A stretch of 64,000 nt of DNA. Source: an uncultured Algoriphagus sp. GTDB lineage: Bacteria > Bacteroidota > Bacteroidia > Cytophagales > Cyclobacteriaceae. Position 1 is the stretch's first letter, and every line of letters starts with the position of its first letter. The notes under the pieces were generated by a model that saw only the letters and a list, made by a program, of their open reading frames with translations, was not told the DNA's origin and ran no database searches. The stretch lies in assembly GCA_903952135.1 (NCBI GenBank), contig CAJBER010000051.1:38178-102177 (forward strand), given 5' to 3'. The position numbers and the translations under genes are program-made. This document shows positions 27,000 through 33,544 of this stretch, piece by piece.

Positions 27000-29552
27000 T
27001 TACTCTCCAGAAGATTCCTTCAGGATTTTGTTGATGCGTTCGTTGGCATCCTCGAGGTGAAGTTTGCTCATGCGGTCAGATGTTCTGCCGATGGCGCCTC
27101 TGATTTGGCTTTGTAGCGTCTTCAATTCTCCACGTGCCATCGGACGAATGTCAGATTGAGCCGCATTGATTTGTGCGCCGGCAAACGCTCTAAACTGAGC
27201 AGGTAGCGCAGCCACACTTCCAGTCAAAAGAAGCTCCAATCGCTCGATGTGCGCACGCTGCAAAGCTCTGCGGTGTACGTCGATGGTTTTTCCAGCACCT
27301 AGTTCGGTCCAAATGCCTTTTCTCAAATCATCGAATAATTCGGTCATTTTGTAGGCTTGAGCACCATTCAAGGCTTCGTTTTCGATCATTCTACCCAGTC
27401 TGCCCCACTCCAAGATTCCGTTGAGGGTACTTACTTGGATGCCTCGTATACGCTCAAGCGCACCGAAGTCTTCGATTCTGGCGATGATGGTTTCGTCCAT
27501 CAACCAGCTTGGGGTGGTGAAAAGCTGCTGGTTTACAAAAGCAACTGCAGCTTTCTGCATTTCTTTGGTTTGGTGCGTGTACACCGCTTCGCCTTGACCT
27601 GCAGACTTGTAGACTTCCGTCACTCCTCCCACATGGTTGCGTACGTGACCCATGTAGCGGTTAAACTGGCCAATCACCTGACCATACATTTCTTCTAGGT
27701 CTTCGTAATTTTTGTAAGGCTTTTCTTTCTCAGCCGTCCACTCCATCAAGTTGGGAAGGATACGCTTCAAGTTCTTGATTCCATACTCGGAAGCAGTTAC
27801 TGAATTGTCTCCCAAATCTTCAGATTGGGTAGTTGGATCGTAGTTATTGCCCTGACGACCGTAACGGTACACAGGATCACCCTTCTTGTCCAGAATCCAC
27901 TGGTTCAAGGTAGGGAGTTCTTCTTCAGGGCTATTAGCACTTAGGATAGGCTTGTATCCCCACATGATTGCATACTTATCGTAAGGTCCTACATCAGGCA
28001 TCAAGCTCACACCCTTGTCTTCTGGCTGAGCCACATAGTTGAATCGAGCATAGTCCATGATGGATGGAGCCGTACCAAATTCTTTGGTGAAGGCGGCATC
28101 ACGCAATTTTTCTACTGGATAGGCTACCGAAGAAGCAAAGTTGTGCGGTAAGCCAAGCGTATGTCCAACCTCGTGAGCAGATACGAAGCGGATCAATCTA
28201 CCCATCACCTCGTCGTCAAACTTGACGGATCTCGCGTCTGGGTTGATCGCAGCAGTTTGGATAAAGAACCAGTTTCTCAAAAGGTTCATCACATTGTGGT
28301 ACCATCCGATGTCAGACTCCAAGATTTCTCCGGAACGTGGATCGGATACGTGAGGTCCATAAGCATTCTGAATGTCAGAGGCAAAGTAGCGGATCACGGA
28401 ATAGCGTGCATCTTCTGGGCTCCAGGTTGGATCCTCAGCAGCGGTAGGGGCTTCTTTGGCGATAATTGCATTTTTAAAGCCAGCGGCTTCAAAACCTTTC
28501 TGCCAATCTTCCACACCTTGCTTCAAATAAGGCACCCACTTGGTAGGAGTAGCAGGGTCGATGTAGTAGACGATAGGCTTTACTGGCTCTACCAATTCAC
28601 CACGGGCAAACTTCTCGCGATCTTCTGGCTTCACTTCCAATCTCCAACGGTCTAGGTATCTTCTAGAAGTAGCGCGCTGCTCATCAGCACCGTAGTCTAC
28701 ATAGGATCTAGCAAACCAGCCTACACGCTGATCAGCAAGTCGCTGCTGCATCGGCACTTTAGGAAGGAGGATCATGGAGGCATTCATCTCCAAGGTGATC
28801 AAACCTGTTACGCTGTTGGAAGGTGGCTCAGCAGCAGCATAGGTAAGTACATACCGTGACTCCACGTTGATAGGATAGGTATTGATGTGTTGGATGTAAG
28901 AGCGCTCGTTATCCAAACGGGTAACACGGTACTGCGTTCTTCTGTTGCGATCTAGACCTAAGGCTTGGTTGTCCTTGATAAACAAATCCGTCGCGTCAAC
29001 GACCGTTCCTGTAGAATCAGTTTTTCTGGATTTGATGGGGAACTTTTGAAGGATAGGCTCCAAGTTGGAAGCCTCTACCGCCTTGGCAATAGGTAAGGAA
29101 TCAGCAGCATAATTATTTAAGGAAACTACCTTAAGCAAGATGTCGTCCTGATTTTTTTCCCAACGCACCATCATGTTGGTGGTGTTTTCTCCACCATAGC
29201 CAATGCCTTCTGCTGTTTTTGCAATACGCACGACCATTAGCATGTCTCTGCCGAGAAGCGAATCAGGAATTTCGTAGAAGTATTTGTCTTCTACTTGGTG
29301 TACTTTAAAAAGTCCAGCCTTGGTTTTTGCCTTGGCAGTAATGACTTCTTTATAGGGTTTGGGTCCATTGGCAGGAGCACCGGGAGCGCCTGGGCCACCC
29401 GGTCTGGCCGGTGCTGGTGCAGCAGGAGCGGGTGTCTCTGCACCTTTTTTCTTTTTTTTCTGTGCAAAGGAATCCTCCGCTTGTAGCATAGCGCCCATAA
29501 GGCCTAGCACAAAGGCGGTTCTCCTCAGCAACTTAGGGAAGGGTGTATTCAT
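27000..29552 (-). CDS. Secreted zinc-dependent metalloprotease (DUF5117/DUF5118-like)
   Basis: Signal peptide; Ala/Pro/Gly-rich linker; SAHEVGHTLGLPHNFASS (HExxHxxGxxH); SIMDYARFNY Met-turn-like. Confidence 0.9.
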   Translation of the reverse strand: MNTPFPKLLRRTAFVLGLMGAMLQAEDSFAQKKKKKGAETPAPAAPAPARPGGPGAPGAPANGPKPYKEVITAKAKTKAGLFKVHQVEDKYFYEIPDSLLGRDMLMVVRIAKTAEGIGYGGENTTNMMVRWEKNQDDILLKVVSLNNYAADSLPIAKAVEASNLEPILQKFPIKSRKTDSTGTVVDATDLFIKDNQALGLDRNRRTQYRVTRLDNERSYIQHINTYPINVESRYVLTYAAAEPPSNSVTGLITLEMNASMILLPKVPMQQRLADQRVGWFARSYVDYGADEQRATSRRYLDRWRLEVKPEDREKFARGELVEPVKPIVYYIDPATPTKWVPYLKQGVEDWQKGFEAAGFKNAIIAKEAPTAAEDPTWSPEDARYSVIRYFASDIQNAYGPHVSDPRSGEILESDIGWYHNVMNLLRNWFFIQTAAINPDARSVKFDDEVMGRLIRFVSAHEVGHTLGLPHNFASSVAYPVEKLRDAAFTKEFGTAPSIMDYARFNYVAQPEDKGVSLMPDVGPYDKYAIMWGYKPILSANSPEEELPTLNQWILDKKGDPVYRYGRQGNNYDPTTQSEDLGDNSVTASEYGIKNLKRILPNLMEWTAEKEKPYKNYEDLEEMYGQVIGQFNRYMGHVRNHVGGVTEVYKSAGQGEAVYTHQTKEMQKAAVAFVNQQLFTTPSWLMDETIIARIEDFGALERIRGIQVSTLNGILEWGRLGRMIENEALNGAQAYKMTELFDDLRKGIWTELGAGKTIDVHRRALQRAHIERLELLLTGSVAALPAQFRAFAGAQINAAQSDIRPMARGELKTLQSQIRGAIGRTSDRMSKLHLEDANERINKILKESSGE

Positions 29553-29626: not shown

Positions 29627-30778
29627 TTGACAGGCGGTTCCCTACTAAAATTAAAGGCATTGATACAGCGTAAACAGGAGGTGTTGATTGTAGGCGGAGG
29701 GCTTGCAGGCTTGGTTGCTTCCTTGCTATTAGTCAAAGAGGGACATCCAGTCACACTCGTGGAGAAGAAAGTGTATCCTTTTCATCGGGTTTGTGGGGAA
29801 TATGTATCCAATGAGGTCCTCGACTTCTTGAAGCGAAACGGCCTCTATCCAGATTTTTTGGAACTCCCCCGGATTGATACTTTCGAGTTTTCAGACACCC
29901 GAGGCAAATCCGTATTCCTACCTCTAGACCTAGGTGGATTTGGAATCAGCCGATACCAATTGGATCTCTGGCTGTACCAACTTGCTTCCGAGCAAGGGGT
30001 AAAGTTCCTGACGGGGACTACCGTGACCGATCTGGATTTTCTGGAAAAGGAGGATGTCTTTGAAGTCAAACTCTCTGACTTCCAAGTGCTGCAGGTGCCG
30101 GTTGTTTTGGGGGCTTTTGGCAAGCGAAGCAAACTGGATCAGGTCTTGGAGCGACCCTTTTTTACCAAGCGAAGCCCCTACATCGGAGTCAAATACCATG
30201 TCCTGGCGGAAGGCTCAGCCAATACCGTGGCCTTGCATAATTTTCAGGGGGGCTATTGTGGGTTCAATGCCATCGAAGAAGGAAAGTTTAATCTTTGCTA
30301 CTTAGGCAATCGGGATCAGCTCAGGCAGTACGGTTCCATTGAAGAAATGGAGCGGGCGGTGTTGTGGAAAAATCCGGTACTCAAACGAATTTTTGAGGAA
30401 AGTACCTTCCTCTGGGAGAAGCCTGAGGTGATCACGGAAATCAATTTTGAACGAAAAAAACCGGTAGAAAATCACCTTCTGCTATTGGGCGATGCGGCAG
30501 GCTTGATCACCCCGCTCTGCGGAAATGGGATGGCCATGGCTATGCACTCCGCGTTTTTGGTGACCGAAGCACTCCGAGAAGGAAGGACAAGGCAGGAAGT
30601 GGAGCAGCGCTACAACCAAGGTTGGAACGCCCATTTTTACCAGCGCCTTGGTGTGGGAAGAGCCATTCAAGGACTTTTTGGATCGGGTAAGGGGTCTGTA
30701 GTGGCTAGAAACCTCATCCAGCGCCTGCCATTTGTGGCCCGCACCCTACTCAAAAACACCCACGGCCAGCCCTTCTAA
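29627..30778 (+). CDS. FAD-dependent oxidoreductase (geranylgeranyl-reductase-like); start uncertain (TTG?)
   Basis: VLIVGGGLAGLVASLLLVKEGHPVTLVEKK dinucleotide motif; RVCGEYVS; LLLLGDAAGLITPLCGNGMAMAMHSA. Confidence 0.85.
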   Translation: MTGGSLLKLKALIQRKQEVLIVGGGLAGLVASLLLVKEGHPVTLVEKKVYPFHRVCGEYVSNEVLDFLKRNGLYPDFLELPRIDTFEFSDTRGKSVFLPLDLGGFGISRYQLDLWLYQLASEQGVKFLTGTTVTDLDFLEKEDVFEVKLSDFQVLQVPVVLGAFGKRSKLDQVLERPFFTKRSPYIGVKYHVLAEGSANTVALHNFQGGYCGFNAIEEGKFNLCYLGNRDQLRQYGSIEEMERAVLWKNPVLKRIFEESTFLWEKPEVITEINFERKKPVENHLLLLGDAAGLITPLCGNGMAMAMHSAFLVTEALREGRTRQEVEQRYNQGWNAHFYQRLGVGRAIQGLFGSGKGSVVARNLIQRLPFVARTLLKNTHGQPF

Positions 30779-30780
30779 TC

Positions 30781-31674
30781 TCAGTTAAATACCTGCAGAA
30801 TCTGGGTGTTTTCCAGGAAATAGTAGATGAAAAAGGCATTGAGGGCAATCGCAGACAGGAAGTTCATGCCCATGGCCCAACTGTAGGTTGCATATTTTTC
30901 CGATTCCCGAAAGATGAATCCCATCCAAAGGAGAAAAAACAACCCGATAGGCGCCATGGCGGCCAAGTAGTACCCGACGATATGGGATTGCCCTTTGTCT
31001 AGAAAATACCAAATAAAGGCAGCGGTCGTCCCTGCAAATAGGAGCGCCGAAAAGATAAAGGTACCCTTGATACCCAACAATAAACTCAAGGTACGATCCC
31101 CTCTACGTGCATCTTCTCCATGCTGATAAACTTGAGTCAGTGGATAATTGCCCCAGAGCATCAAGCTGGTGAGTAATCCTGGTACAAGCACATGTGGCTT
31201 GAATAGGACTTCCCAACCCAAGTTGCTTAGCCCGGCATACGCCATCGCAAAGGTGAAATAGCCTTGGAAAAGGCCGGCAATCACCCAGCTGATCCAAGCG
31301 TATTTTTTCAAGCGTATCGTTGGATGACTGTAGGCCATGCTGACCAATCCATAGAGGCCAAGCATGCTCGCAAATTCCCAGTTGATCCATGCCCCCAAGG
31401 CCAAAGCAATGCAAAAAAAGATCAGAGACCAGACGAGTAGGTCTTTGGTTACCTTGGGTGGACGCTTCAGGCCACCGATACTTTCCTCGTCCTTGTCATA
31501 GTAACTGTTGTAGCCATTGCTGCTGGGATAGAGAAACAGGTGCAAACTCAAAAAGACTAGCAGCATGCGTTCTCCGTTGTGGTTGGGCGTCAAGGCCAAG
31601 GCAAATAAGAATACCGGCAGTAGAAAAAATGAGAAGGGGATGCGCAGGTGCAATAGGGTGGAGCGTGTGATCAT
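30781..31674 (-). CDS. UbiA-family prenyltransferase
   Basis: Polytopic; Asp motifs NGYNSYYDKDEESIGG and QHGEDARRGDRTLSLLLG; YSHPTIRLKK. Confidence 0.83.
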   Translation of the reverse strand: MITRSTLLHLRIPFSFFLLPVFLFALALTPNHNGERMLLVFLSLHLFLYPSSNGYNSYYDKDEESIGGLKRPPKVTKDLLVWSLIFFCIALALGAWINWEFASMLGLYGLVSMAYSHPTIRLKKYAWISWVIAGLFQGYFTFAMAYAGLSNLGWEVLFKPHVLVPGLLTSLMLWGNYPLTQVYQHGEDARRGDRTLSLLLGIKGTFIFSALLFAGTTAAFIWYFLDKGQSHIVGYYLAAMAPIGLFFLLWMGFIFRESEKYATYSWAMGMNFLSAIALNAFFIYYFLENTQILQVFN

Positions 31675-31763
31675 GAGTTAGGTTTCTTGAGTGCCAAGGT
31701 ACAGCTATTTCGAAAAGAGTCCTTCGACAACCTAAATTAGAACTATTTTGGTAACTTGAATGA

Positions 31764-32843
31764 ATGAATTCCAGTATCGTTAGTATCGGCCTTTCCAATC
31801 CAGGAACGCCCATACCCCAAGCGGAAATCTCACGCTTCATGCAGGTAGCCCATCAATTGGATCCCCAAGAGCGAAGAAAGCTTGATTTTTTGTACCGAAA
31901 ATCGGGAATCGATTCACGCCACAGTGTCTTGGATGATTTTCAAAGAGAGGAGGTGAGTGACTTCACCTTTTTCCCGAAAAATAAAGAACTGAATCCTTTT
32001 CCGGGTACCGCTGCCCGCATGCAGGTATTCGAAGAAAAGGGTCCCGAACTCGCTGAGCAGGCTGTTCGATCGGCTTTACTGCAGGCAGAGGTGGAAGCGA
32101 ATTCGCTGACACATTTGATTTTAATTTCCTGTACGGGCATGGTGGCCCCGGGGCTTGAACTGGACCTGATGCGGCGACTGGATATCCCGAGTTCGGTGGA
32201 GCGCTATTGCATTCATTTTATGGGTTGCTACGCGGCATTTACGGGTTTGAGGCTTGCCGATCAACTGGTAAAAGCCAACCCAAAAGCCCGAGTATTGGTG
32301 GTATCCGTAGAACTCTGCACCCTGCATTTTCAAAAAGAATATACCGAAGACAATCTCCTAGCCAATTCTCTCTTTGGGGATGGGGCGGCCGCGGCGCTGG
32401 TGATGCAGTCCGAGAAAGGTTTGCAGATCAAAAATTACTTCAGCGAAGTCCTTTGGGAAGGGGAAAAAGACATGGCCTGGAAAATCGGAGATTTTGGATT
32501 TGAGATGCGGCTTAGTCAGTACATTCCTTCCCTGCTCAACCAAGGCATTCGGCGATTGCGAGACCTGTTTGAAGTCAAGTTCAACTTTTCAAAGGTGCGC
32601 CATGTGGCGATTCACCCTGGGGGCAAGCAGATTTTGATCCAAGTACAGGAGGCTTTTGGACTTTCACCAGAAGTGAATCAACATGCGTTGGAGGTGCTGC
32701 GCACCTGTGGCAACATGTCCTCCGCCAGCATCTTATTTGTCTTGGAGCGCATGCTGCAGGATTCCAGCATTCAAGGAGATATTCTTGCCTTGGGCTTTGG
32801 CCCTGGGCTGACTTTGGAAACCACCCACTACGAAAAGCGATGA
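31764..32843 (+). CDS. Type III polyketide synthase (chalcone/stilbene synthase family)
   Basis: Cys-His-Asn triad motifs: HFMGCYAAFTGLR, VAIHPGGKQIL, CGNMSSASILFVLERM. Confidence 0.92.
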   Translation: MNSSIVSIGLSNPGTPIPQAEISRFMQVAHQLDPQERRKLDFLYRKSGIDSRHSVLDDFQREEVSDFTFFPKNKELNPFPGTAARMQVFEEKGPELAEQAVRSALLQAEVEANSLTHLILISCTGMVAPGLELDLMRRLDIPSSVERYCIHFMGCYAAFTGLRLADQLVKANPKARVLVVSVELCTLHFQKEYTEDNLLANSLFGDGAAAALVMQSEKGLQIKNYFSEVLWEGEKDMAWKIGDFGFEMRLSQYIPSLLNQGIRRLRDLFEVKFNFSKVRHVAIHPGGKQILIQVQEAFGLSPEVNQHALEVLRTCGNMSSASILFVLERMLQDSSIQGDILALGFGPGLTLETTHYEKR

Positions 32844-33544
32844 GTAGATTTGACCAGCGCTCCCGCGAAAAGGAAATCATGGACGACCTGGAATGCTCAG
32901 GTCCCGTTTTGGAGCAGACCCTCCGGGAGTTGAAAACCATCAACCGCTGGTTGGGGGGAAATAAAGTAACTACACAGGGGTTGAGCGAGGTGGTACAACG
33001 CTTCCCTCAAGCACAATTCAGTGTGGTAGATCTGGGCTGTGGAGGGGGAGATATGCTCGCAGTGATGCAGGACTGGGCCCAGCAAGAGCAGGTTTCGATG
33101 CAGTTGATCGGTGCAGATGCCAATGCGCATACCATCGCACTTGCCCAGCAGCGACAGCAACAACTCCAGGATATCCGTTGGCAAGTAGCCAATGTCTTTG
33201 ACCCCACATTCTTTGAGGAGCGGGTGGATATTGCTACTTGTACGCTCTTTACCCACCATTTTACAGACGAGGAACTCGTGACACTCTTTCAAGGTTTGAA
33301 GCAAAAGGTGCGGCTCGCCATTGTCATCAACGACCTGCATCGCCATCCCTTGGCCTACTATTCCATCAAATGGTTGACGCGCTGGTTTAGCAAGTCGCCT
33401 ATGGTGCAGCACGATGCAGCCTTGTCGGTACTTCGAAGCTTTAGGAGAAACGATTGGGAGTCAATTTTCCAGCAGGCCGGCCTGACTGAAGTACACATTC
33501 GCTGGCGCTGGGCGTTCCGTTGGCAGATTTGTGTGTATGTCTGA
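32840..33544 (+). CDS. SAM-dependent methyltransferase
   Basis: FSVVDLGCGGGDMLAVM motif I; ATGA overlap with the PKS gene. Confidence 0.88.
   Translation: MSRFDQRSREKEIMDDLECSGPVLEQTLRELKTINRWLGGNKVTTQGLSEVVQRFPQAQFSVVDLGCGGGDMLAVMQDWAQQEQVSMQLIGADANAHTIALAQQRQQQLQDIRWQVANVFDPTFFEERVDIATCTLFTHHFTDEELVTLFQGLKQKVRLAIVINDLHRHPLAYYSIKWLTRWFSKSPMVQHDAALSVLRSFRRNDWESIFQQAGLTEVHIRWRWAFRWQICVYV

Follow-up and report, generated by a model that had tools for sequence, protein, structure and literature searches.

A conserved four-gene locus of Cytophagales and relatives that probably joins a type III polyketide synthase and a UbiA prenyltransferase in one lipid pathway

Do four neighbouring genes of an Algoriphagus-like bacterium form a single biosynthetic pathway, and if so, what kind of compound would it yield? 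The genes lie in a 64,000-nucleotide stretch of DNA, referred to here in its full length as the window, from a genome of 2.84 Mb (about 90% complete) placed near Algoriphagus-like Cyclobacteriaceae. They encode an FAD-dependent oxidoreductase (29627..30778, + strand; Pfam FAD_binding_3), a UbiA-superfamily membrane prenyltransferase (30781..31674, - strand; Pfam UbiA), a type III polyketide synthase (PKS; 31764..32843, + strand; Pfam Chal_sti_synt_N and C) and a class I SAM-dependent methyltransferase (MT; 32840..33544, + strand; Pfam Methyltransf_25), and all four proteins exceed the Pfam gathering cut-offs. The arrangement described in the original prediction is present in the sequence, i.e., the four open reading frames and their strands, the ATGA overlap of the PKS and MT genes (32840-32843), the convergent FAD and UbiA genes with a gap of 2 bp (30779-30780), and the UbiA and PKS genes diverging from an 89-bp intergenic region (31675-31763), in which the promoters of both are presumed to lie. 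Purifying selection on each of the four genes is strong, with dN/dS values of 0.03-0.07 in comparison to the locus of a relative (L008).

Conservation of the neighbourhood had been proposed earlier as a check of the functional link. By scanning the proteins of genome contigs we obtained 59 named loci, which were then searched with a profile for each gene. PKS and MT were matched in all 59, UbiA in 58 and FAD in 53; the full four-gene set is present in 53 of the 59 named relatives and the PKS, UbiA and MT genes together in 58, the sole locus without UbiA being a 3.4-kb contig that ends inside the PKS gene. These loci include Algoriphagus, Cecembia, Belliella, Litoribacter, Fulvivirga and Arcticibacter. 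The gene order varies while the set stays: it is divergent in Cyclobacteriaceae, forms a compact UbiA-PKS-MT-FAD operon in families f5, f8 and parts of f3, and in Arcticibacter the FAD gene is relocated downstream of MT. Among 60 further loci of other families, UbiA adjoins PKS in 13, and here too the two genes diverge in some families.

The association of PKS with UbiA extends beyond physical linkage. In 396 Bacteroidota genomes searched, strong PKS matches (families f1, f2, f3, f4, f5, f8 and f13) and strong UbiA matches (>300 bits) occur in the identical 26 genomes, as raw counts with kinship ignored, and in six of these (G146, G072, G190, G158, G388 and G166) UbiA is located away from PKS. 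A sample of 242 genomes of the order, likewise counted without regard to kinship, contains 178 genomes positive for PKS and 176 positive for UbiA (E below 1e-60), approximately 70% of the genomes; both are found in 173, and a lax re-search that added UbiA for G419 and G447 raises this number to 175. UbiA occurs without PKS in three genomes of the sample (G460 and the less complete G505 and G515), and PKS without the locus-type UbiA in another three (G532, G595 and G605), all of genus g8; the latter is a point against the pathway reading. We also checked ten genomes in which the set is broken up or seemingly incomplete. Each of them has a FAD homologue, either next to PKS or at another site. 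MT was missing only from G190 and G372, thus it is not essential to the gene set.

Is the prenyltransferase then a partner of the synthase, or a housekeeping enzyme that happens to lie next to it? The locus protein scores 69.8 bits to Pfam UbiA (cut-off 34.2), nine long helices make up its AlphaFold2 (AF2) model (pLDDT 91.6), and Foldseek gives a TM of 0.70 to the A. pernix UbiA (4od4). Both Asp-rich motifs had been predicted; the two motif sites are indeed conserved, however, they hold the variants NSxxDxD (residues 56-62) and QHxxD (184-188), which are kept across the subfamily, and the canonical NDxxDxxxD and DxxxD are absent from the locus UbiA. Since the motifs deviate from the canonical ones, the reaction of this enzyme could differ as well. 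A sister UbiA was also observed in family f24: it is confined to PKS-positive genomes (34/34), scores lower (117-158 bits) and does not adjoin PKS.

The same genome encodes four further UbiA proteins elsewhere, namely CyoE (heme O synthase; C26), a GGGP-synthase-like UbiA (C55), MenA (C112) and EboC (C206), of which CyoE, MenA and EboC exceed curated cut-offs (MenA with 352 bits to PRK06080, EboC with 404 bits). Among the NCBIfam matches listed for the locus UbiA there is neither a menA model nor the EboC model (NF035940). The EboC (Ubi-297) prenyltransferase of the ebo cluster, known also from Algoriphagus (PMC9235831), is of the UbiA family and occurs in the same bacteria, but here it is a separate gene. 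We thus rejected MenA, EboC and other housekeeping enzymes of the family as identities of the locus UbiA, and the menaquinone role, which the original prediction had named as an example of a finding that would speak against a joint pathway, belongs to a gene elsewhere.

These data bear directly on the possibility that PKS, MT and flavoprotein produce an alkylresorcinol or alkyl-quinone of the hierridin or polyketide-quinone type, while UbiA serves menaquinone or another isoprenoid lipid and is merely nearby. UbiA-less PKS-MT-oxidoreductase triads do exist in other Bacteroidota and on plasmids of Psychrobacter, Falsirhodobacter, Deinococcus, Sphingobium and Mesorhizobium, and the six genomes with an unlinked UbiA would fit such a separation. 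It is nevertheless improbable in view of the separate genes for the other UbiA enzymes, the co-occurrence of PKS and UbiA, which is almost perfect even where they are unlinked, and the compact operon and shared open frame (described below) of some lineages. The reading that all four genes would belong to one pathway is strongly supported, because linkage persists in several gene orders, the PKS/UbiA co-occurrence is near-perfect regardless of linkage, and MenA is separate; the joint action proposed originally is borne out to this extent.

The closest coupling was seen in five genomes of one genus (G565, G458, G508, G540 and G621), where one open frame of 653-671 aa spans both UbiA and PKS and the MT and FAD genes come next, with overlaps. 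UbiA and PKS of the sister genome G520 (locus L161) are separate open reading frames that overlap in a TTGA stop/start. All five shared frames retain this TTG, exactly where the separate PKS of L161 starts, and the shared frame therefore indicates tight coupling and not a proven fused protein. In the canonical UbiA topology, nine helices leave the C-terminus on the periplasmic side of the membrane. A fused synthase would thus come to lie on that side, a point in favour of internal initiation or of an unusual topology. On both counts we rejected a straightforward UbiA-PKS fusion.

What would the synthase supply? It scores 98.6 and 59.4 bits to Chal_sti_synt_N and C, respectively (cut-off 27 each), and its AF2 model (pLDDT 84) reaches a TM of up to 0.89 against type III PKS structures. 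The predicted intact Cys-His-Asn triad was found as Cys155-His284-Asn317, together with the GFGPG loop, and is unchanged in every one of the 72 relatives that share this gene set. Trp239, which is conserved, lies near the position aligned with Trp281 of ArsB, as judged from the range of the alignment to 3vs9 and not residue by residue. Since Trp239 is found also in M. tuberculosis Pks11 and in those PKSs that go together with an isoprenylcysteine-type methyltransferase (ICMT), it is not diagnostic, and we did not accept it as proof of resorcinol-type cyclisation. Ala128 and Cys185 align with the long-chain tunnel residues of PKS18. In the PKS tree, which comes from a quick, short search and has some weak branches, the UbiA-linked synthases fall into few groups, with 5 label changes in comparison to 22.7 in shuffles.

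The best NCBIfam match of the synthase is DpgA (NF042429), at 130 bits against a cut-off of 425; this score is far too low for the synthase to be taken for DpgA, and the match may merely mirror the scarcity of type III PKS models in the library. It does suggest an alternative in which the PKS forms a ring from malonyl units only, of the 3,5-dihydroxyphenylacetate or phloroglucinol type, and UbiA prenylates it to a prenylquinone that resembles plastoquinone and has no fatty tail. UbiA-type enzymes of plants and cyanobacteria prenylate homogentisate in the plastoquinone and tocopherol routes, and a UbiA acting on a dihydroxyphenyl ring, an MT and a hydroxylase would suffice for such a product. 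However, no DpgB/C/D-like genes were recognised around the locus, and the two residues aligned with the PKS18 tunnel would also allow a long-chain starter. We regard the malonyl-only route as unlikely.

The flavoprotein was originally described as geranylgeranyl-reductase-like. It scores 46 bits to FAD_binding_3 (cut-off 22), and its start is uncertain, TTG at 29657 being possible as well as TTG at 29627. Its best NCBIfam match is indeed the geranylgeranyl (GG)-reductase superfamily model TIGR02032, but the 87 bits obtained are below the cut-off of 158.8, and the protein also stays under the cut-offs of the MenJ, BchP and DGGGPL reductase models. Its sequence matches in the PDB are weak, the best of them being flavoprotein monooxygenases and halogenases. 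The earlier description thus stands at the superfamily level only, and the enzyme looks more like a monooxygenase. Relatives with 44% identity adjoin MT and PKS in genomes of family f7 (Flavobacteriaceae-like, named by sequence and kinship), which lack the locus-type UbiA. There the relatives of FAD and MT are found with type III PKSs of another subfamily, with neighbouring genes that appear FabZ-, KASII-, ACP- and phosphopantetheinyl-transferase-like as judged from sequence. Because FAD and MT occur together with a type III PKS even in these genomes without the locus-type UbiA, a role in reducing the prenyl chain is disfavoured, and the aromatic polyketide is the most likely substrate of the pair. 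We consider the flavoprotein most likely to be an aromatic monooxygenase of the polyketide ring; that it is a geranylgeranyl reductase saturating the prenyl chain, giving a prenyl-reduced and not an oxidised phenolic lipid, is hardly probable, as the superfamily match that suggests it is opposed by the sub-cut-off scores, the PDB matches and the f7 clusters.

The methyltransferase exceeds the cut-off of Methyltransf_25 with 46.2 bits, and its nearest NCBIfam model, PRK06202, is matched with 144 bits, under the cut-off of 243.

From these elements a pathway can be proposed. The PKS would join malonyl-CoA to a starter that is probably a fatty acyl-CoA or acyl-ACP, and cyclise the chain to a resorcinol-type phenol, probably with an acyl-derived tail. 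UbiA, judging by its family and its co-occurrence with PKS, would attach an isoprenoid chain to the ring at the membrane, with a prenyl diphosphate as donor, MT would methylate the ring at carbon or oxygen, and the flavoprotein would hydroxylate it. The end product would be a prenylated, methylated hydroxy-phenol or quinone remaining in the membrane. It seems reasonably probable that the four genes form one such small biosynthetic pathway, near-core in Cytophagales and their relatives. A prenylated, methylated and oxidised phenolic or quinone-like lipid, as predicted originally, is the most sensible reading of the enzyme families, with the exception of the chain-reductase part, which is disfavoured.

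The presence in about 70% of the genomes of the order, the retained neighbours and the purifying selection make the locus look like a part of general physiology rather than of sporadic secondary metabolism. More tentatively, most Cytophagales and several related families may use the PKS/UbiA pair, possibly a single polypeptide in one genus, to make an undescribed prenylated polyketide lipid, perhaps a membrane quinone serving as an electron carrier or antioxidant beside menaquinone. If a prenylated counterpart of the respiratory quinones is made, then a membrane lipid or redox carrier has gone unrecognised in a major group of environmental bacteria. The UbiA subfamily would in that case be a new aromatic prenyltransferase of bacteria, one that uses a polyketide as acceptor.

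In the open-licence literature we found no described type III PKS-UbiA locus in Bacteroidota; the pathway of this locus is real, conserved and uncharacterised. The logic of a UbiA-type membrane prenyltransferase acting on the phenol of a type III PKS, followed by modification by a flavoenzyme, is familiar from plant cannabinoid-type pathways. However, those consist of plant enzymes from an unrelated gene set, with a flavoenzyme of another family and without the need for a methyltransferase. In other phyla, PKS-MT-oxidoreductase triads lead to alkylresorcinols, hierridins and polyketide quinones (PMC10896814, PMC8086630, PMC9927152), and what is new with respect to these triads is the dedicated UbiA. 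The FAD proteins of the plasmid triads (Proteobacteria, Deinococcus) show 24-27% identity to that of the window, where matched at all, and are therefore distant relatives or analogues.

The nearest likeness is to hidABC of picocyanobacteria and the three-gene operon of Planctomycetota, which consist of a type III PKS, a methyltransferase and an oxidoreductase; planctomycetal PKSs make alkylresorcinols, to which the G. maris genes add one methyl group, probably C-linked (PMC8086630, PMC10896814). As in our locus, the three functions are held in one small cluster, but the gene order differs and a prenyltransferase is absent from all save one cyanobacterial cluster, that of R. mediterranea (PMC8086630); the likeness to HidA and HidB is drawn here from the gene set. 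The phenolic-lipid operon of S. griseus and pkqABC of Mycobacterium smegmatis and Streptomyces encode a type III PKS, a methyltransferase and a hydroxylase/oxidoreductase yielding modified alkyl-benzoquinones, one class of which acts as respiratory electron carriers (PMC9927152). These differ from the present case in belonging to actinomycetes, in lacking UbiA and in carrying an alkyl and not a prenyl tail. The trait common to the hid and pkq types, a PKS, an MT and an oxidoreductase that are adjacent and co-conserved, is found in our locus as well. The best reading is that the pathway would work like these operons, with a dedicated prenyltransferase added.

The gene for a DUF5117/DUF4953 met-zincin protease (27000-29552 in the window) is kept beside the locus in most Cyclobacteriaceae. 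Since this gene is not found beside the four-gene set in the other families compared, the protease is probably mere neighbourhood of the locus.

UbiA and the type III PKS are spanned by a single ORF of 653-671 aa in loci L156-L160 (genomes G565, G458, G508, G540 and G621), and a TTG is kept within this frame at the point where the sister genome starts its separate PKS. By canonical UbiA topology, the PKS part of the shared frame would lie outside the cytoplasm. A sister UbiA subfamily, with the motifs NSxWDKDEGPIGG and YPVSQ, occurs in L173-L175 (family f24), where it does not adjoin the PKS; within the sample, it was confined to PKS-positive genomes (34 of 34).

In families f22 and f24, a MATE-like transporter gene precedes a type III PKS-MT (methyltransferase)-flavoprotein cluster whose flavoprotein belongs to another family (L114, L118, L120, L121, L123, L124, L126 and L128). 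The Flavobacteriaceae-like family f7 (L142-L145, L148, L150 and L155) lacks the UbiA in its clusters, which run FAD-MT-type III PKS; the FabZ-, KASII-, ACP- and phosphopantetheinyl-transferase-like genes that follow suggest, as judged from sequence, a type III PKS fed by acyl-ACP. Type III PKS-MT-FAD triads were also observed on plasmids of Psychrobacter, Falsirhodobacter, Deinococcus, Sphingobium and Mesorhizobium (L176-L180), and thus this three-gene module is mobile.
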